A DNA stretch of 46,108 nucleotides from a virus: the IMG/VR virus record IMGVR_UViG_3300025128_006362, positions 1 to 46,108 of that record; one strand, given 5' to 3'. Below the pieces are notes generated by a model. That model was not told the origin of the DNA. It made no database searches and saw only the letters and a program-made list of their open reading frames with translations. This document shows, in pieces, positions 13,906-38,713 of this stretch (positions are counted from its first letter, which is position 1; every line of letters begins with the position of its first letter). The position numbers and the translations under genes are program-made.

Positions 13906-13940
13906 GAGGGGTGGGGTTAGCCTCACCCCTCTTTTTTTTT
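13906..13940 (+). terminator. Strong Rho-independent terminator
   Basis: An 11 bp stem (13906-13916 with 13921-13931, GAGGGGTGGGG / CCTCACCCCTC, one G-T wobble) with loop TTAG is followed by nine T residues. It separates the virion-type unit from the envelope block. Confidence 0.95.
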
Positions 13941-16514: not shown

Positions 16515-16521
16515 TTTTCAT

Positions 16522-16559
16522 GAGACGGCTCACTTAGCGTGGGTCGTCTCGTTTTTTTT
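16522..16559 (+). terminator. Strong Rho-independent terminator
   Basis: A 12 bp stem (16522-16533 with 16539-16550, GAGACGGCTCAC / GTGGGTCGTCTC, two wobble pairs) with a 5 base loop is followed by G and eight T residues. It closes the envelope block. Confidence 0.95.
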
Positions 16560-20095: not shown

Positions 20096-20165
20096 GAAAC
20101 GTCTAAAACGAGAACGAAGAGTTCGAGCAAGGAAGCGAGATCATGGAACGGCCAACGTGGGATGA
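20058..20165 (+). CDS. Possible highly basic 35-residue peptide
   Basis: An ATG-started frame codes for a peptide in which about half the residues are Arg or Lys (KKSKRDKKRLKRERRVRARK). It overlaps both neighbours in other frames and has no clear ribosome site. It may be a real nucleic-acid-binding micropeptide or a by-product of AG-rich sequence. Low confidence. Confidence 0.2.
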   Translation: MGRTIRKKSKRDKKRLKRERRVRARKRDHGTANVG

Positions 20166-20637
20166 ATATTTTATAAACTTCGCCGTTCTAACTTCAACAA
20201 GAAGTCCAGATTCTCAAACTAAGGTTGGTTGTGTACTAGTACACGAAAACAGAGTCATTAGCGCCGGTTACAATGGATTTTGTTCAGGTGTAAATGACTC
20301 ATCTTTACCAACCCGTAGGCCAGATAAGTATCCCTTTATGGTGCATGCTGAGCAAAATGCTATAAGCAATATGGTTATAAAACCTAAAAAAGATATCATT
20401 GCTTACGTAACTCATATGCCTTGCTATAGATGTGCAAAGCTTTTGTGGCAAAACAATATTACCACATGGAAGGTAGCGAATGGTAATAAAGTTAGTAGTT
20501 ATTCCGAGAAAGACACAATGATACATAATCATTTAGTTGATTTTGGATTGCAAATAGAGTGGGTTACCCCAAGTAGGTCTTACTTAAACGAACTGACGAA
20601 CAGTAATCAAAATGAAAAGCAAGCTAGATTGTTCTAG
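20143..20637 (+). CDS. dCMP deaminase
   Basis: The 164-residue protein has the zinc-dependent deaminase motifs HAEQNA (His and catalytic Glu) and MPCYRCAK (PC-x2-C). The N-terminal WDEYFINFAVLTSTRSPD and GCVLVHENRVISAGYNGF match phage and bacterial dCMP deaminases. It converts dCMP to dUMP, the precursor for thymidylate, and so works with the dUTPase at 23027. It precedes the ribonucleotide reductase leader. A thymidylate synthase is not in the window. Confidence 0.85.
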   Translation: MERPTWDEYFINFAVLTSTRSPDSQTKVGCVLVHENRVISAGYNGFCSGVNDSSLPTRRPDKYPFMVHAEQNAISNMVIKPKKDIIAYVTHMPCYRCAKLLWQNNITTWKVANGNKVSSYSEKDTMIHNHLVDFGLQIEWVTPSRSYLNELTNSNQNEKQARLF

Positions 20638-20645
20638 TGTATAAT
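20637..20645 (+). promoter_or_regulatory. GTGTATAAT promoter-like motif
   Basis: GTG overlaps the last base of the dCMP deaminase stop; TATAAT is at 20640-20645. The predicted start (about 20652) would leave a leader of about 160 bases before the reductase ATG, which contains the structured region 20683-20795. Confidence 0.55.
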
Positions 20646-20795
20646 AAAGTGTCGGAATTTAAAGAAGCTTTTTAAAGAGCTAGAGCGACACTTTTTCGAC
20701 ACGCCATTGTTGCACCAAGTCAGTAGTTTAAACTTTTACTCAACATAAAATTAACCCCTAACAAATTTCTTGGTAAAGCGGTGTCGCTCTTTTTT
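20646..20795 (+). ncRNA. Structured leader with competing hairpins before nrdJ
   Basis: Three segments compete. A (AAAGTGTCG, 20646-20654) pairs with B (CGACACTTT, 20686-20694), with T residues to 20696. B extended (GAGCGACAC, 20683-20691) pairs instead with C (GTGTCGCTC, 20781-20789), which is followed by six T residues (20790-20795), as in a terminator. Inside B-C lie a 6 bp stem ACCAAG / CTTGGT (20714-20719, 20769-20774) and a small hairpin AGTAG / TTACT. This is the shape of an attenuator or riboswitch controlling the reductase. I see no cobalamin-box consensus. A known nrdJ-associated RNA motif is a candidate match. Confidence 0.6.
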
Positions 20796-20814
20796 ACCAA
20801 CTCAAAGGAACACA

Positions 20815-23016
20815 ATGTCGGTTAGAGAGCTTCAGGATTATACATTTGTTGCAAAGTATGCAAGATGGATACAAGAAAAAAAAAGAAGAGAAACTTGGAA
20901 TGAAGCTGTTAGCCGCGTAAAGGAGATGATGTTAAACAAGTACTTCGATATACCTGAAGTACACGAAGACATCGAATGGGCTTACGAGATGATGCGTAAA
21001 AAGCGCGTCCTTGGTTCTCAAAGAGCCTTACAGTTTGGCGGCAAACCAATCTTTAAGCACAACGCCCGAATCTATAATTGCATCACTTCTTTCTGTGATC
21101 GCTTGCGTTTCTTTCAAGAGTGTATGTATCTTTTGCTTTGTGGGTGTGGTACTGGATTTTCTGTACAGAAACATCACATAGCAAAACTACCACCCTTAAT
21201 AAAAAACAAAAATGGAACAAAAAAATACGTCATACCAGATACGATTGAAGGATGGTCTGATGCGGTAGGTATACTGGTATCAAGTTACTTCGATCAAAAA
21301 GAATCGTTTCCTGAATACGCAGGTAAGAACGTAAAGTTTGATTATTCTGAGATTAGACCTGCGGGGTCTTTCCTAAACTCAAGCGGTGGAAAAGCTCCCG
21401 GCCCAGAACCACTAAAGCTTGCTCTTTCTAGCATTAGAAAAATATTAGACAGGGCGTTAAAAGATCTAGAGTTCTGTGATAAATCAATAAGATATCTCAC
21501 GCCAATTCAAGCCTACGACATAGTAATGCATAGCGCTGATGCTGTTATTTCAGGTGGGGTTCGTAGAAGCGCCACTATATGCCTATTCAGCCCAGACGAT
21601 GAAGAGATGGCTAAAGCTAAGACTGGTTCTTGGTTTGTAGAAAATCCTCAAAGAGGTAGGTCTAATAACTCTGCTATTCTATTAAGAGAAAAAACAACGG
21701 CAAAGCAGTTTTCAGAACTAATGAATTCTGTTAAAGAATTTGGAGAACCCGGATTTGTATGGTCTGACTCTACTGAGTTAATAGTAAATCCCTGTGTTGA
21801 GATTGGCATGTGGCCTGTAGATGAGACTACAGGAGAAAGCGGTTGGCAAGCCTGCAATTTAAGCACGATCAACTGTGCAAAGATAAAGTCAGAAGAAGAT
21901 TTCCTTGAAGCCTGTAAAGCAGCTTCTATAATTGGAACACTACAAGCTGGCTTTTCTTCATTTTCATATCTTGGAGAAACAAGTGAAAATATAGTAAAAA
22001 GAGAAGCCCTGCTTGGTGTTTCCATGACAGGCATTATGGAACAACATGAAATATGTTTAAGTCCAGAGGTTCAAAAAGCTGGAGCTAAGACGGTTAAAGA
22101 TGAAAATAAAAGAATCGCTAAAATCATTGGAATCAATCAAGCTGCTAGAACTACTTGTATCAAACCTGAAGGCACTAGCAGTTGCGTTCTTGGGACTAGT
22201 TCTGGTATCCATCCTCATCATGCCAAGCGTTATATTAGACGCGTGCAAGCTAATAAGATGGAACCGATCTACAACTACTTCAGAGAAATAAACCCAAGAG
22301 CTTGCGAAGAATCTGTATGGTCAAATAATGATAGTGATGACGTAGTCTCTTTTTGTGTTGAAGTTCCTGCTGGAGCAAAAACAAAAAACCAAGTCGGGGC
22401 TATTGATTTGCTTAGCCACGTAAAGAGTACGCAACAAAACTGGGTCATTACTGGAACCAACAAAAAACTTTGCACCCAACCTTGGTTGGTACATAATGTT
22501 TCCAACACCATTAACGTAAAGCCAGATGAATGGGAAGAAGTAGAAAAATTCATTTATAAAAATAGAAAATTCTTCTGCGGCATTTCTTTGCTGCCAATTA
22601 CGGGAGATAAAGATTATCCCCAAGCACCATTCACCGCAATCTACTTACCAACAGAACAGGTTCGTCACTATGGAGACGCATCTTTGTTTGTTAGCGGCCT
22701 TATAGAAGTCGCCCTCAACCTATGGGAAGACAATCTGTGGGCAGCGTGTGATTCACTTCTTGGTGTTGGAGCCAAAATAAAAGGCAACGGCAAAAAAGAA
22801 TGGTCAGATAGATGTGCAAGATTTGCAGAAAGGTACTTTGAAGGCGACCTGAGAAAACTCACGTACTGCATGAAAGATGTATACAACTGGAAAGAGTGGG
22901 TAGACTTAAGCAGAGAATACACCCCTGTGGACTACACAGAAGTTATAGAAGAAGAAAACAATGTTAAGCCTGAACAGGAATGGGCTTGTGCGGGCGGTAA
23001 GTGCGACGTTATTTAA
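20815..23016 (+). CDS. nrdJ: Class II (adenosylcobalamin-dependent) ribonucleotide reductase
   Basis: The 733-residue protein matches the monomeric B12-dependent ribonucleoside-triphosphate reductase type. RIYNCI holds one redox cysteine, NPCVEI (325-330) holds Asn325, the thiyl-radical Cys327 and Glu329, and the C-terminal CAGGKC (Cys725/Cys730) is the shuttle pair. LLLCGCGTGFSVQ and GSQRALQFGG are typical of this class. It makes dNTPs from NTPs without oxygen dependence and needs adenosylcobalamin from the host. Thioredoxin (16571) could re-reduce it. AAAGGA lies 5 bases before the ATG at 20815. A structured leader precedes it. Confidence 0.92.
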   Translation: MSVRELQDYTFVAKYARWIQEKKRRETWNEAVSRVKEMMLNKYFDIPEVHEDIEWAYEMMRKKRVLGSQRALQFGGKPIFKHNARIYNCITSFCDRLRFFQECMYLLLCGCGTGFSVQKHHIAKLPPLIKNKNGTKKYVIPDTIEGWSDAVGILVSSYFDQKESFPEYAGKNVKFDYSEIRPAGSFLNSSGGKAPGPEPLKLALSSIRKILDRALKDLEFCDKSIRYLTPIQAYDIVMHSADAVISGGVRRSATICLFSPDDEEMAKAKTGSWFVENPQRGRSNNSAILLREKTTAKQFSELMNSVKEFGEPGFVWSDSTELIVNPCVEIGMWPVDETTGESGWQACNLSTINCAKIKSEEDFLEACKAASIIGTLQAGFSSFSYLGETSENIVKREALLGVSMTGIMEQHEICLSPEVQKAGAKTVKDENKRIAKIIGINQAARTTCIKPEGTSSCVLGTSSGIHPHHAKRYIRRVQANKMEPIYNYFREINPRACEESVWSNNDSDDVVSFCVEVPAGAKTKNQVGAIDLLSHVKSTQQNWVITGTNKKLCTQPWLVHNVSNTINVKPDEWEEVEKFIYKNRKFFCGISLLPITGDKDYPQAPFTAIYLPTEQVRHYGDASLFVSGLIEVALNLWEDNLWAACDSLLGVGAKIKGNGKKEWSDRCARFAERYFEGDLRKLTYCMKDVYNWKEWVDLSREYTPVDYTEVIEEENNVKPEQEWACAGGKCDVI

Positions 23017-32585: not shown

Positions 32586-33570
32586 TCTTGGAACTTTAGA
32601 ATTTTGTCAGCAAAAGTACTTTTTGCAATACAATCTTTCCTTCAAGGATAAAACCAACAAAAAGGCCTTGATGGGAACTATAGTTCACAAGGTTATGCAA
32701 ACTCTTGGAGACAAGAAGATTGCAATGAACAAAGGTCTTGACGTTGTAGAAGATGACGAGACAGGAAAAACGCTAACCCTTAAAGAGTGCGATGACTTAA
32801 AGCTGTTAAACGACTTGGCTTTCGATTACTACTCATCTAGCTTTCCAGAAGTAAACATAACAGAAGCAGATAAGAGAACCTGTCTAAAGTGGGCAGAAAA
32901 AGCCGTGGCTTATGAAGGAGGAGTATTAGACCCAAGAAACCAAGAAGTGTTTGCGACCGAACTATTTTTTGACTTTGAAATAAAAAAACCTTGGGCAAAA
33001 TATTCTTATGATCTTGGCGGCAAAACAATCGAGGGGTATCTATCAATCAAAGGAACGGTAGATCTCATATTAAAACAATCAGAAGATTACTACGAAATCC
33101 TAGATTATAAAACGGGCAAAAGAATAGACTGGGCAACAGGAGAAGAGAAGACATACGAAAAGCTTCAAAAAGATACGCAGCTTCTTTTGTATTATTACGC
33201 CCTAAGAAACATGTACCCAGAACGTGAGTTTTCAATCAGTATTTACTATATAAATGCTGGCGGCTTATTCTCGATGGCCTTCGACGAAGAAGACTACCAG
33301 AAAGCCGAAGACATACTCAGGAAAAAATTTGAACAGATAAGAAACACTCAACACCCCAAACTTCTATCTAATAAAAACGCCCACTGGAAATGCCAAAAGC
33401 TTTGCAAGTTCAGTGAGCCTTATAAAGATACAGGAAAAAGCCTGTGTCAACACATACGAGATGAAGTCATAAAAAAGGGTGTAAATCAAGTTGTTGAAGA
33501 GTACGGAAATATTGAAAAAATAACCACCTACGGAGACGGCGGTGGAAGATTAGCGGATAAGAAAAAATGA
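32557..33570 (+). CDS. RecB/Cas4-like nuclease, likely with 4Fe-4S cysteines
   Basis: The 337-residue protein has the RecB/Cas4 layout. An N-terminal RSSSLGTLEFCQQKYFLQY has one cysteine; GTIVHKVM follows; the PD-(D/E)XK core reads GTVDLI ... YEILDYKTGK; QLLLYYYAL is motif QxxxY. A C-terminal CQKLC ... C group adds cysteines. One N-terminal plus three C-terminal cysteines is the cluster pattern of AddB/Cas4. It probably resects DNA ends for recombination. No Cas1/Cas2 or CRISPR is near. Confidence 0.8.
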   Translation: MIVCYHRSSSLGTLEFCQQKYFLQYNLSFKDKTNKKALMGTIVHKVMQTLGDKKIAMNKGLDVVEDDETGKTLTLKECDDLKLLNDLAFDYYSSSFPEVNITEADKRTCLKWAEKAVAYEGGVLDPRNQEVFATELFFDFEIKKPWAKYSYDLGGKTIEGYLSIKGTVDLILKQSEDYYEILDYKTGKRIDWATGEEKTYEKLQKDTQLLLYYYALRNMYPEREFSISIYYINAGGLFSMAFDEEDYQKAEDILRKKFEQIRNTQHPKLLSNKNAHWKCQKLCKFSEPYKDTGKSLCQHIRDEVIKKGVNQVVEEYGNIEKITTYGDGGGRLADKKK

Positions 33571-35480
33571 ATTGGACACCTCTACACTTGCATACGCACT
33601 ACAGCCTCCTAGATGGTCTCTCAAAGCCCTCACAGGTTGCCTCACGGTGCGAAAAGCTTGGCTTTGAATCCTGTGCATTAACCGACCACGGCACTATATC
33701 GGGCGCTGTGGCCTTCACGCAGGCTATGAAGAAAAAGAATATTAAACCAATACTCGGATGCGAGTTCTACCTAAGCCAGCAAGATTGTACAATCAAGTCT
33801 GACAAAAATAGAAGCCTCAGTCATCTTTGCGTATTGGCTAAAAACAGGCAGGGTTGGGATAGTTTAATCCAAGCCGTGTCCAAAAGTAATGATGAAGAAA
33901 ACTTTTATTATAGACCCCGATTAGATTTACAGACATTGGGTCAGTTTGCAAACGGTAATATCATTGCTTTTAGTGGTCATCTTGGAAGCGACTTGGCAAA
34001 TGCTATATTTGCCGATGCAAAGTCGGCTTATAGTGCGCCCACAGAAGATGAGGCTAAAAGATATGTACATCCCGATTGGGTTGACAACGTATTGCTACTA
34101 GCAAACAAATACAGAGACATTTTTGGAAAAGATAATTTCTTTCTTGAAATTCAAGCCATAGATCAAGAAAACTCTCCTGCCGCATCTTTGGTTGTTCAGG
34201 GGCTAAGATATATAGCCAAAAAATATAAATTTGAAACAGTTGCTACAGCAGATTCTCATTATCCAGAAAAGCAAGACGCTGGAGATCAACTACTTCTTCT
34301 TTGCTCTGCAATGAAAACAACCCTGCGGGGAATTAAGAAGAGACTCCAAGAAAATGGCGATGTTGCCTTTGGTGGGTTTATGAAATCAAACAATTTTCAT
34401 ATACCTTCACTAGAAGAAATAGAGGCTGTAAACACATCTCATGAAATTGCAAACACAATGCAAATTGCAAGCATGTGTGAAGACTACAATATCCTTGGTA
34501 AGCCAATGCTTCCTAAGTTTAGTTGTCCTGAAGACAAATCAGAAGAAGAACATTTACGACAGCTTTGTAGAGATGGTTGGCTTTCCAGACTAGCACCAAC
34601 AGGCAGGGTTAACACCCAGTCAGCAAAAGATTTATATACAGAAAGAATTAAAGCAGAGCTTGATGTAATTAGTGATGCCAATTTGTCTGGCTATTTTTTA
34701 ATAGTAAGAGATATTGTAAACAGTGTTCACAGCAAGAATCATATTCCGGGGCCGGGAAGAGGTTCTGCTGCCGGATGTTTAGTATCATATTTAGTAGGTA
34801 TCACACAAGTAGATCCAATAGAATATGGATTAATCTTTGAGCGCTTTTATAATGCTGGACGAAATACGGATAATCACATATCTTTGCCAGATATCGACAT
34901 TGATGTTCCCGCATCCAAGCGTGACGAAACAATTGATTATATACGAAATAAATACGGCTCAAAAAGGGTTGGTCAAATGGTTACATTTGGAAGGCTTCAA
35001 GGGCGTAGCGCCCTGAAGGAAGTTTTACGAATGAACGAGGCTTGTGGTTTTGATGAAATGAACACCATAACAAAAAGCCTACCACATGAACATGAAGTTT
35101 CTGACCAGTTAGCAGAGATGGATGACCCATCGGTTATCAAATGGACACTAATGAATCAGCCAGAAACCATGCGAGACTATTGTAGATTAAATGACGATGG
35201 TGAGCTGGAAGGTGACTATTCTAAACTTTTTGCTCAAGCCATGCGGATAGAAGGAACCTTCAAATCACAAGGCAAGCATGCAGCGGGTGTCGTTATATCT
35301 TCACACAGCTTAAATGAAGTTTGCCCGATGGTAAGAGACAAGAAGGCTTCAGAAAAAATAGCAGGGATGGAAATGAACGACTTAGAAGCTATGGGTCATG
35401 TTAAGTTTGACATATTAGGTATTTCTTTACTAGATAAAATCATGGGAGTTAGGGATCAACTCGAAGATAACAATGTTTAA
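33567..35480 (+). CDS. dnaE: DNA polymerase III alpha, N-terminal half (PHP + palm)
   Basis: The 637-residue protein has a PHP domain with intact metal motifs (HLHTHYS at 7-13, LTDHG, GCEFYL, TADSHY) and the C-family palm: GPGRGSAAG, then the catalytic pair in PDIDIDVP (Asp444 and Asp446), and the third Asp615 in HVKFDILG. It ends 22 residues after that Asp. The rest of the enzyme is the gene at 37118. All catalytic Asp residues are in this half, so the parts must join non-covalently. I see no split-intein sequence at the end. Confidence 0.93.
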   Translation: MNWTPLHLHTHYSLLDGLSKPSQVASRCEKLGFESCALTDHGTISGAVAFTQAMKKKNIKPILGCEFYLSQQDCTIKSDKNRSLSHLCVLAKNRQGWDSLIQAVSKSNDEENFYYRPRLDLQTLGQFANGNIIAFSGHLGSDLANAIFADAKSAYSAPTEDEAKRYVHPDWVDNVLLLANKYRDIFGKDNFFLEIQAIDQENSPAASLVVQGLRYIAKKYKFETVATADSHYPEKQDAGDQLLLLCSAMKTTLRGIKKRLQENGDVAFGGFMKSNNFHIPSLEEIEAVNTSHEIANTMQIASMCEDYNILGKPMLPKFSCPEDKSEEEHLRQLCRDGWLSRLAPTGRVNTQSAKDLYTERIKAELDVISDANLSGYFLIVRDIVNSVHSKNHIPGPGRGSAAGCLVSYLVGITQVDPIEYGLIFERFYNAGRNTDNHISLPDIDIDVPASKRDETIDYIRNKYGSKRVGQMVTFGRLQGRSALKEVLRMNEACGFDEMNTITKSLPHEHEVSDQLAEMDDPSVIKWTLMNQPETMRDYCRLNDDGELEGDYSKLFAQAMRIEGTFKSQGKHAAGVVISSHSLNEVCPMVRDKKASEKIAGMEMNDLEAMGHVKFDILGISLLDKIMGVRDQLEDNNV

Positions 35481-35703
35481 AAAAGAAGCAAAAAAAAGCT
35501 ACAGGCAAAGAGTAAAAGACAAAATCCAAAATGGAAGATACGAGGAATATAAAGGTCTTTCCATTTGCAAAATAAACGACTATTACCCTTTAGCAAACGG
35601 AAAAATAAAGTACCAAGTACACTCACACTTTTTTAGTGATTTGTATGAGGATGTTGAATTGGCGTTAGACAAATTTTTTGAGATTAGAAGGAAGATAAAA
35701 TGA
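35473..35703 (+). CDS. Small protein of unknown function between polymerase halves
   Basis: The 76-residue basic protein (MFKKEAKKSYRQRV ...) has a beta-rich middle (GLSICKINDYYPLANGKIKY) and a C-terminal helix (ALDKFFEIRRKI). It overlaps the polymerase N-half by 8 bases and the exonuclease by 4. No family is recognised. Confidence 0.5.
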   Translation: MFKKEAKKSYRQRVKDKIQNGRYEEYKGLSICKINDYYPLANGKIKYQVHSHFFSDLYEDVELALDKFFEIRRKIK

Positions 35704-36383
35704 ACTATAGGGATATTATTGTTTTTGACTTTGAGACTGGCTCACGCAATCCCGATAAGACACAACCTGTGCAGATTGCAGCGGTTGCTATTCACGGTAG
35801 AAAATTGACAGTTCAACCAGAGGGTTATTTTGAAAGCCTTATAAAGCCAATCTTCGATGACGAAGAGGCTATTGAAAAGGGTTTAGACCCTATTGAGGAC
35901 GAGGCTTTAGCGGTTAATGGTAAAACCAGAAAAGAACTAGCAAAAGCTCCCTCGGCTAAAACTGTCTGGAAGAAGTTTGGCAACTTCGTAAACAGGTATA
36001 ATTTCAAGGGTACTCCTTACTACGCACCCATTGCAGCCGGTTATAACATAGTTGGGTTTGATATGCCGATTGTACAGCGTATGTGCGACATGTATGGCCC
36101 AACGGATAAAAAGACGGGCAAGCAAACCCTGTTTAATAAAATCCACCGAATTGATGTAATGGATAGTGTTTGGATGTGGATGGAAAACAATGCCGACATT
36201 AATTCGCTTAGCATGGACTCAATGCGTGATTTATTTGGAATGAGTAAGGAGAATGCTCACGATGCTTTACAAGACGTAAAGGACACAGCAAATCTAATGA
36301 TAGGTTTCATGAAGCTCCACAGGCGTATCGCTCCAAAAATTAAATTTGAAAAGGCTTTTGCAGATGGAAACTTGCACATATAA
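35700..36383 (+). CDS. DnaQ-like 3'-5' exonuclease (DEDDh)
   Basis: The 227-residue protein has Exo I VFDFETGS (8-15), Exo II GYNIVGFDM and Exo III NAHDALQDVKDT (His and Asp), the full DEDDh set. It probably proofreads for the split polymerase that surrounds it. A PHP domain with metal ligands in the polymerase could give a second proofreading site. It overlaps the previous gene by 4 bases and the methyltransferase by 20. Confidence 0.88.
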   Translation: MNYRDIIVFDFETGSRNPDKTQPVQIAAVAIHGRKLTVQPEGYFESLIKPIFDDEEAIEKGLDPIEDEALAVNGKTRKELAKAPSAKTVWKKFGNFVNRYNFKGTPYYAPIAAGYNIVGFDMPIVQRMCDMYGPTDKKTGKQTLFNKIHRIDVMDSVWMWMENNADINSLSMDSMRDLFGMSKENAHDALQDVKDTANLMIGFMKLHRRIAPKIKFEKAFADGNLHI

Positions 36384-37116
36384 AAACGTTTGGGATGATC
36401 TTAACACATACGAAAAAACTGGATGGAGACAAGTTCTAGCCCACCTTCCGTGGCTGAAGCCTACTGACACCTTTCCTTTAATTAGCGATATAGTACTGCC
36501 AAATGAGTTAACAGCCTTTTATCAGTTTGGTATATACACCGGCAAAAGCGTTATCGTATCCCTCGATGCAATAAAGCAGGCTGGTAAAAAAATTGATATC
36601 GCTTATGGGTTCGATTCTTTTGAGGGGTTGCCAGAAAGAACAAACCAAGAAAGAGATGAGGTAGTTAAAAAGCATGGAGAGTATCTGTGGAAAGCTGGAG
36701 ACTATAGTTCTGACGAACTTTATGGCGTAGAGGATTCTAGGGATTTTCTACAAGGCATGTACGATAAATATCTCGACACGCCAATTAAGCTAATAAGAGG
36801 GTGGTATGAAGATACCTTAAACAAAGAAACCTTTGAAAAATACAGCCTTAAGAAAGCAGCCTATATTGATATTGATGTTGACACCTATGACTCATGTGTT
36901 GAAGTTTTAGATTTTGTTTTTTCCGAAGGCATAGCCGTGCATGGAACTATTCTTGGTTTTGATGACTGGGGAGGAACGCCCGGATGGGAAACTATGGAAG
37001 AAGGCGTATCTAAAGCTTTAAAAGAGTCTATTGAGAAGCACAACATTAACCTAGAAGTCATATGTCGTGTTGGTGATACTTACCCACAAGTTCAAGCAGT
37101 ATTTTTGGTAAAATAA
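36364..37116 (+). CDS. TylF-type class I methyltransferase
   Basis: The 250-residue protein shows TylF/macrocin O-methyltransferase features: FYQFGIYTGKSV (SAM loop region), IAYGFDSFEGLPE, AYIDIDVDTYDSC and LGFDDWGGTPGW. Family members methylate sugar hydroxyls with a metal-aided Asp pair. It lies between the halves of a DNA polymerase, where a sugar methyltransferase is unexpected, and could act with the glycosyltransferases elsewhere in the window. The ATG at 36364 is preferred over the TTG at 36346. Confidence 0.75.
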   Translation: METCTYKNVWDDLNTYEKTGWRQVLAHLPWLKPTDTFPLISDIVLPNELTAFYQFGIYTGKSVIVSLDAIKQAGKKIDIAYGFDSFEGLPERTNQERDEVVKKHGEYLWKAGDYSSDELYGVEDSRDFLQGMYDKYLDTPIKLIRGWYEDTLNKETFEKYSLKKAAYIDIDVDTYDSCVEVLDFVFSEGIAVHGTILGFDDWGGTPGWETMEEGVSKALKESIEKHNINLEVICRVGDTYPQVQAVFLVK

Positions 37117-37117
37117 A

Positions 37118-38713
37118 ATGGAAGCCTCAAAATTTGATATTCTTAGCCTTGAGTTTGAAGACAAAAAAGCTTGGGATTTAATATGCTCAGGAAAAACTAA
37201 AGGTGTTTTTCAACTAGAGAGCAATCTAGGTAAATCTTGGGCTAAGAGAGTTAAGCCAAAAAACATAGAAGAGCTTGCCGCTTTAATATCAATCATTAGA
37301 CCGGGAACATTGAAGGCTATTCAAGATGGCAAGTCAATGACTCAAAGGTTTGTTGATCGTAAAAACCTTAAAGAGGACATAACCTATCTTCACCCTTCCT
37401 TGAAACCCATACTAGAAGGAACTCAGGGGGTTCTGGTTTACCAAGAGCAGTCCATGCAGATTGCTCAGCAACTTGCGGGCTTTAGCCTTCAGGAAGCCGA
37501 TAATCTTCGTAAAGCCATCGGCAAGAAAAAAGCCGACTTGATGGCGAAGGTTAAAACACAATTCCTAAAGGGTTCGATTAAGCAGGGAGTCTTAACACAG
37601 GAAGAAGCAGAAGAGATCTTTAGCTGGATTGAAAAATCTAGCAGGTACGCCTTTAATAAATCTCACGCCGTTTCTTATGCTATATGTGCATACTGGAGTG
37701 CTTACGCTAAAGCTCATTATCCGGTTCAATTTTATTGTAACTATCTTCTCCATTCTTCTGGCAAACCTGATCCACAGCGAGAAGTGAAAGAGCTTGTTAA
37801 TGACGCAAAGAATGGTGAAATATATATAAGTCCACCATCCATAAACGCTATTAACACCAAGACTGACATCATTGATAATCAAATACATTTTGGGCTTGTT
37901 GATGTTAAGTCTGTTGGCTTAAAGCAAATAGAAAAGTTTAAATCTGTAATCATTGGTATTGAAGAAGAAAAAAACGGGAAGCCTTTATCAGACTGGTCAT
38001 GGTATGAATTCTTAGTGCTAGCATCCCCAAACGTTAATTCAAGAATGTTAATCGCCTTAATATCTATTGGCTTTTTCGCCCACCTGCCAGAATCAAGACA
38101 GCAAATGCTTGATGAGTTTGATACTTGGAGCAGCTTGACAAAAAAAGAGCAAGAATGGGCAGTAATTCACCATGCTGAATATAATAATCTTATAGAACTA
38201 CTAACAGCTATGGCTCCAACAAAAAAAGAAGGAGGAGCCACATTTAATTCAAGAAGATCAGACACAATTAAAGATCTATTGATTCAAAGTAAAAACCCGT
38301 CCTATTCATTAAAAGATGAGCCTGAGTGGGTCATAAGAACTGAAGAGAATTACCTTGGTGTTGCCTTAACTTATTCAAGGATTGAAACCTACGAAACCAA
38401 TCTAGCAAACACCACAATAAAAGAATTCTCTGACGGCAAAAGAGGCGACATAAAAATGGCCGTCACTATTTCAGAAGTTAAAAAATACATTACCAAAAAG
38501 GGGAAGATGCAAGGATCAGAAATGGCCTTTTTATGCGTAGAGGATCATACTGGAACCTTAGATACAGTCACCGCATTTTCAGAAAAGTGGAGAGAGTACA
38601 AAAACGTTTTGTATAGAGGTAACAATATTATATTGGTGGGTCAAAACTCTAAGAACAAAAGATATCAAGTTAATGATGGGTTTATCATTGAAAGCGTAAT
38701 AGAACTCAATTGA
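37118..38713 (+). CDS. dnaE: DNA polymerase III alpha, C-terminal half (fingers to OB)
   Basis: The 531-residue protein continues from the N-half: TKGVFQLESNLGKSW, ISIIRPGTLKAIQDG, VLVYQEQSMQIAQQLAGFS, FNKSHAVSYAICAYWSAYAK are the family motifs after the palm. The C-terminal 100 residues (KMAVTISEVKKYITKKGK ... FLCVEDHTGTLDTVTAF) form the OB domain. It starts at an ATG one base after the methyltransferase stop. The residue order joins exactly onto the first half with no missing conserved block, so it is a gene split rather than a fragment. Confidence 0.9.
   Translation: MEASKFDILSLEFEDKKAWDLICSGKTKGVFQLESNLGKSWAKRVKPKNIEELAALISIIRPGTLKAIQDGKSMTQRFVDRKNLKEDITYLHPSLKPILEGTQGVLVYQEQSMQIAQQLAGFSLQEADNLRKAIGKKKADLMAKVKTQFLKGSIKQGVLTQEEAEEIFSWIEKSSRYAFNKSHAVSYAICAYWSAYAKAHYPVQFYCNYLLHSSGKPDPQREVKELVNDAKNGEIYISPPSINAINTKTDIIDNQIHFGLVDVKSVGLKQIEKFKSVIIGIEEEKNGKPLSDWSWYEFLVLASPNVNSRMLIALISIGFFAHLPESRQQMLDEFDTWSSLTKKEQEWAVIHHAEYNNLIELLTAMAPTKKEGGATFNSRRSDTIKDLLIQSKNPSYSLKDEPEWVIRTEENYLGVALTYSRIETYETNLANTTIKEFSDGKRGDIKMAVTISEVKKYITKKGKMQGSEMAFLCVEDHTGTLDTVTAFSEKWREYKNVLYRGNNIILVGQNSKNKRYQVNDGFIIESVIELN

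Follow-up and report, generated by a model that had tools for sequence, protein, structure and literature searches.

A previously uncatalogued leader RNA is carried by a group of uncultured phages upstream of their ribonucleotide reductase (RNR) genes. We consider it likely, though short of secure, that this RNA defines a new family, one of cis-regulatory 5′ leaders in which a pseudoknot is coupled to a terminator, riboswitch-like attenuators that would control viral RNR.

Leader RNA Upstream of a Phage RNR Gene

The window, by which we mean the whole stretch of DNA analyzed, comprises the 46,108 bases of a virus record in IMG/VR. Its RNR gene matches TIGR02505, the RTPR model, with E 5.7e-68, yet stays under the curated cut-off of that model, and is followed downstream by a dUTPase gene and then a PhoH-like gene. 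The parts of the leader and its flanks are as follows.

20143-20637: dCMP-deaminase-type gene, upstream of the leader
20637-20645, + strand: promoter-like GTGTATAAT, heading the leader
20646-20654, + strand: AAAGTGTCG, strand A of the sequence-only reading
20649-20657, + strand: P1 5′ strand (A), GTGTCGGAA, partner of 20694-20702
20658-20665, + strand: J1/2, purine-rich joining segment, consensus about AUAAAGA
20666-20681, + strand: P2 hairpin, AGCTTT...AGAGCT
20683-20691, + strand: P3 5′ strand (B), GAGCGACAC, partner of D
20694-20702, + strand: P1 3′ strand (C), TTTCGACAC, closing the pseudoknot
20703-20713, + strand: mini-hairpin GC-(7 nt)-GC between C and P4 (alignment reading, no statistics)
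20714-20774, + strand: P4, stem ACCAAG (20714-20719) with CTTGGT (20769-20774), loop with AGTTTAA
20781-20789, + strand: P3 3′ strand (D), GTGTCGCTC, doubling as the 3′ half of the terminator stem
20790-20795, + strand: U-run (TTTTTT), completing the intrinsic terminator on P3
20804-20809: AAAGGA, likely ribosome-binding site of the RNR gene
20815-23016, + strand: class II adenosylcobalamin-dependent RNR (NrdJ/RTPR-like, 733 aa), the predicted regulated gene

The sequence-only reading had described an attenuator-like leader here, in which segment B could pair either upstream or downstream, the latter partner being followed by six T residues. All of its segments are present at the positions listed, as are its nested stems and an nrdJ-type class II gene beginning at ATG 20815, and B is able to pair with either partner in the window; it had missed both GTGTATAAT and strand C, a third copy of the strand and the partner of A that comparison among relatives supports. 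In most leaders, GTGTATAAT or a near variant lies 3-11 nt upstream of strand A, and in L270, L274, and L275 a TTGYAA-17-TATAAT type promoter takes its place (a reading of the sequence). The window holds four copies of GTGTATAAT (1242, 8878, 11334, and 20637), all on the + strand and near gene starts, and the element may represent a class of phage promoter. Elsewhere in the window, at 33567-38713, a DnaE-like DNA polymerase III alpha is split in two genes (PHP and polymerase domain, 33567-35480; finger and HHH, 37118-38713), and the halves are separated by genes for a DnaQ-like exonuclease (35700-36383) and a TylF-like methyltransferase (36346-37116).

Folded singly, the segment has a z of −1.04, and 26 of 200 shuffles fold equally well. 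Such folding is uninformative here because the method does not allow pseudoknots; the departure from chance comes from comparison among relatives and not from single-sequence folding energy.

Comparative Evidence for a Pseudoknot

Comparison gives good support to an H-type pseudoknot in which P1 (A-C) crosses P3 (B-D), with the predicted P2 hairpin sitting between A and B and the predicted P4 hairpin between C and D. The sample consists of 34 leaders from related viral contigs, hand-picked as clear examples and not random; the relatives are metagenomic contigs throughout, with hosts unassigned. Compensatory changes, which the sequence-only reading had named as a check on its stems, are found in the helices of these related leaders. 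In an alignment of 12 sequences (A2), 89.3% of the cells in P1, P2, P3, and P4 together are paired, versus 34-45% in slid controls; 16 pairs are changed on both sides, and the covariation score is reached by 0 of 500 shuffles. A covariance model, R1, was built without P1, so its matches outside the training set were not selected on that helix; they score from 66 down to 21 bits (L019, 66; L279, 40; L084, 38.5; L260, 36).

P1 itself is paired in 94% of the cells in 12 relatives and shows double changes at four of its nine pairs, two of which display four pair types. Over the 34 leaders there are 32 distinct 5′ strands, and none of 20,000 partner permutations reaches the observed A-C pairing, a signal partly due to alike leaders inside clades. 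The most divergent P1 pairs stand alone: AGACTAAAG/CTTTAGTCT (L135), GATCAGAG/CTCTGATC (L256), GTGCTAGG/CCTAGCAC (L300), and TCGAGAC/GTCTCGA (L286). Four leaders have a weak P1, namely L306, L263, and L283, each with five contiguous pairs, and L336, with a mismatch.

All nine P3 pairs form in 30 of the 34 leaders and eight of nine in the other four. Its compensatory changes fall at positions 1 and 3-6, with GC/AT, CG/TA, and AT/GC exchanges, and its CAC-GTG end (CAC/GUG in RNA) is invariant (34/34); the loop that it closes is unusually long, at 65-129 nt. P2 is the weakest core helix, with 72% of cells paired (combined Fisher 173, 68 df, versus mononucleotide shuffles), and every leader has a stem that ends 0-3 nt 5′ of a AGCGACAC core, AGC..GCU being the commonest form. 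Two unpaired stretches are conserved as well, the AA/AG that joins P2 to P3 and J1/2, which recurs in most leaders while the sequence of P1 varies.

For P4 and the mini-hairpin, the support is confined to clades. P4 is paired in 86% of the cells in the window's clade, with double changes at five of eight pairs, and neither its stem nor its loop is the same in more distant leaders. The mini-hairpin reads GCC-GAAA-GGC in L270, L274, L275, and L279. A GCC-GAAA-GGC-like mini-hairpin, together with GTGTCGTT followed by a U-run and a degenerate B strand, also lies upstream of nrdA in L119-L124, L261, L289, and L307; these are possibly a divergent or decaying variant, and they were excluded from the leader statistics.

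Terminator and Spacing to the RNR Gene

An intrinsic terminator, by the usual sequence criterion of a GC-containing stem and then a U-run, is predicted in 33 of the 34 leaders, the exception being L003. The U-run directly follows P3 in 26 leaders, a separate GC-rich hairpin lies 10-15 nt past D in 15, and eight have both; in shuffled tails, a separate terminator hairpin arises 0.4 times per 34. Together with the relatives, these terminators bear out the earlier proposal of an attenuator-like leader ahead of the RNR gene. Two further strong intrinsic-terminator-like hairpins occur in the window, at 13906-13931 and 16520-16552.

In the window, a gap of 19 nt separates the U-run from the RNR ATG. 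In its clade and in L004, L110, L114, L117, and L384, the start codon follows the U-run by ∼10-20 nt, and in L004 and L384 the U-run almost touches the ribosome-binding site. This spacing leaves no space for another promoter in the window, L004, and L384, so RNR transcription from GTGTATAAT or farther upstream must cross the terminator there. The sequence layout is thus that of an attenuator, from which we infer that termination is conditional. Of the two traits that define a riboswitch, direct binding of a small ligand and a conserved, structured 5′ leader domain coupled to an expression platform, the second is seen here at the level of sequence. In the class I loci L260-L269 and L283, ∼100 nt separate nrdA from the terminator and may hold a second promoter (GGTACAATT-like, by eye), so the RNA there could form a transcript of its own. 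Among the leaders compared, no antiterminator proved to be universally conserved; a candidate overlapping D (CGAC/ACAC right after D in several leaders, by eye) was rejected as too short and inconsistent.

Linkage to RNR of Both Classes

The leader is well supported by its distribution as being linked exclusively to RNR, of both classes. A search with the RNR protein gave 80 related loci, of which the subset L002-L005, L010-L014, L019, and L061 has the leader in common; many related phages carry a similar RNR without it. Six loci with a related class II RNR (L040, L043, L050, L051, L057, and L072) show a TGTATAAT-type promoter and a short unstructured leader and may serve as natural leader-less controls. 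A DNA pattern of promoter plus strand A, unanchored on RNR, recovered more leaders; among these, L084 and L099/L101 are followed by a gene that starts with the N-terminal part of a class I RNR large subunit. Searches with class I proteins added many further leaders, some wholly unlike in sequence. Among the DNA-pattern loci with the motif, 32 of 33 precede an RNR gene of class I or class II on the same strand; the 33rd is cut off, but its contig has a known class II RNR. Whole contigs of 28-136 kb contain the element once each, their weak opposite-strand matches reflecting the symmetric P3. Pattern matches in L250 and L251 were set aside because they are locally repeated GTGTCG/CGACAC, and on inspection the remaining matches away from RNR showed no leader.

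The leader and terminator of L384 (class II) closely resemble those of the class I loci L297, L302, and L412, which suggests that the RNR class was switched beneath one leader, or else that leader and site underwent recombination. Between leader and RNR, L116, L255-L259, L336, L359, and L384 have a basic ∼65-aa ORF (MFEKSNGKDSPKIEVNFILRDKNGNPTGKRKSF...) with no match in Pfam or PHROG. In prokaryote genome contigs, none of at least 116 pattern stretches among the matches listed has P1 and P3 together. Cultured phages gave no DNA match by blastn to three leaders or the RNR region, and in five annotated records R1 had no match in the vicinity of RNR.

Comparison with Known RNA Families

The whole window gave no match to Rfam 15 at the gathering threshold, cobalamin classes included, and relaxing the cut-off to E 10 gave none for positions 20500-21000. 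The search covered 4227 Rfam models, a set that may or may not include one for the nrdJ-associated RNA motif named in the sequence-only reading. From 11 divergent relatives, one sub-threshold match was obtained, to Termite-leu (L265:908-965), ∼270 nt upstream of the leader. The sequence-only reading had seen no cobalamin-box consensus in front of a B12-dependent enzyme. The former point agrees with the Rfam result; the latter link proved incidental, since many leaders of the relatives precede the B12-independent class I NrdA. The use of B12 thus fails to explain the gene linkage. Class I linkage argues against specificity for adenosylcobalamin, though not decisively, because a coenzyme B12 riboswitch represses the class Ia nrdABS operon of Streptomyces (Borovok 2006, cited in PMC5962746).

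Three other identities were considered and dismissed. A trp-type peptide-leader attenuator would need a reading frame, and 20646-20795 contains no ATG; the short NTG frames of the relatives, examined by eye, are unlike in length and frame. A group I intron shares the P3-P7 topology, but the element has no Rfam match, is intergenic, and is about 150 nt long. The HDV-like topology has a different strand order.

H-type pseudoknots are known among riboswitches, in SAM-II and in preQ1-II, where an additional hairpin precedes the last strand. Neither is known to have an extra P2 hairpin; in sequence, size, and gene context they are unlike the phage leader, which has no Rfam match. The nearest mechanistic parallel is the HMP-PP (thiS) riboswitch, whose aptamer lies inside an intrinsic terminator stem, as the putative aptamer of the phage leader would, and which has a possible pseudoknot (PMC6478431). 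That RNA is much smaller and has another gene association, and its pseudoknot and terminator are alternatives (PMC6478431), whereas P3, the terminator stem of the phage leader, also serves as one of the pseudoknot's helices.

Two systems are precedents for RNA control of RNR. The 2′-deoxyguanosine-I riboswitch of Mesoplasma florum also precedes an RNR subunit gene and acts by transcription termination, but it has the purine-riboswitch fold, with a three-way junction and kissing loops, and no crossing A-C/B-D helices (PMC8872408). The Streptomyces nrdABS riboswitch (Borovok 2006, cited in PMC5962746) is also a leader controlling an RNR operon, but with a cobalamin fold; the phage leader has no cobalamin-family match and precedes class I and class II alike. 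Membership in the HMP-PP, 2′-dG-I, or Streptomyces B12 families is not supported. Marine phages also carry structured riboswitch-like RNAs, the manA, wcaG, and glnA-type motifs (PMC2864571, PMC9004378), from which the present leader differs in family and gene, again with no Rfam match.

Proposed Mechanism and Alternatives

The leader probably acts as an RNA switch governing how much RNR is produced. Transcription would start from GTGTATAAT, making the segment the 5′ leader of the RNR transcript. As the polymerase departs, A, P2, B, and C would emerge first and P1 could form; when D emerges, P3 would be completed and transcription would stop. If D were delayed or blocked, RNR would be transcribed. 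A signal that stabilizes or destabilizes the P1-P2-P3 junction (AUAAAGA, P2 AGC-GCU, and P3 CAC-GUG) could then set RNR output. The signal is probably a nucleotide-related ligand or a protein. If a small molecule is sensed, the best candidate seems to be a nucleotide or dNTP, given that the leader accompanies RNR whatever its class. Our tentative suggestion, to which we give somewhat less than an even chance, is a new viral riboswitch class that exerts feedback control on RNR of any class in response to a nucleotide or dNTP, its pseudoknotted aptamer having the second helix in common with the terminator.

The same leader and terminator could instead respond to a protein, such as the RNR enzyme, a phage-encoded factor for RNA binding or antitermination, or the basic ∼65-aa product of the small ORF. 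The gathering of conserved nucleotides at one junction would suit this, as would the small ORF found between leader and RNR in the loci named above, and phage autoregulatory RNA pseudoknots are known, as in T4 gene 32. The window's clade has no such ORF, however, and class I and class II RNR are different proteins. We regard a protein signal as unlikely, if still a serious candidate. We are more doubtful of an independent small RNA that has a promoter and terminator of its own and acts in trans or via a protein, while a different promoter, or read-through, drives RNR expression. The promoter-RNA-terminator unit is complete, eight leaders have double terminators, and the spacing and possible second promoter of L260-L269 and L283 would accommodate it; a start codon ∼10-20 nt past the U-run in the window's clade and the five other tightly spaced loci speaks against it, and exclusive linkage to RNR over both classes is the expectation for a cis-element.

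A plain constitutive terminator that shields RNR from upstream genes would account for the terminators at the ends of 33 of 34 leaders; it would need neither a conserved pseudoknot whose pairing is rewritten but kept, nor a structured loop of 60-130 nt, nor a promoter-like element immediately upstream, and we hold it very improbable. Hardly credible, finally, is the original model in which B alternates between an antiterminator with AAAGTGTCG and a terminator with GTGTCGCTC. Both pairings are possible in the window, where A-B has a nominal p of 0.012, but in the 12-sequence alignment 74% of A-B cells are paired with no excess over shuffles, over the 34 leaders 8,770 of 20,000 permutations reach the observed A-B pairing, and the pairing is lost in L004, L135, L256, L268, and L286. 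A and B can pair because B and C share CGACAC in the window's clade; the proposed switching of B between A and D is not kept.

Implications

RNR sets the dNTP supply. It has been reported among the most abundant genes in environmental metagenomes (PMC3653736), and our search of the literature found no published RNA element like this one for phage RNR. As a candidate nucleotide-sensing RNA, the leader is small and open to experimental test. A family of RNAs confined to positions ahead of RNR, and retained across a change of RNR class, would mean that in these phages dNTP synthesis is regulated by RNA after transcription initiation.
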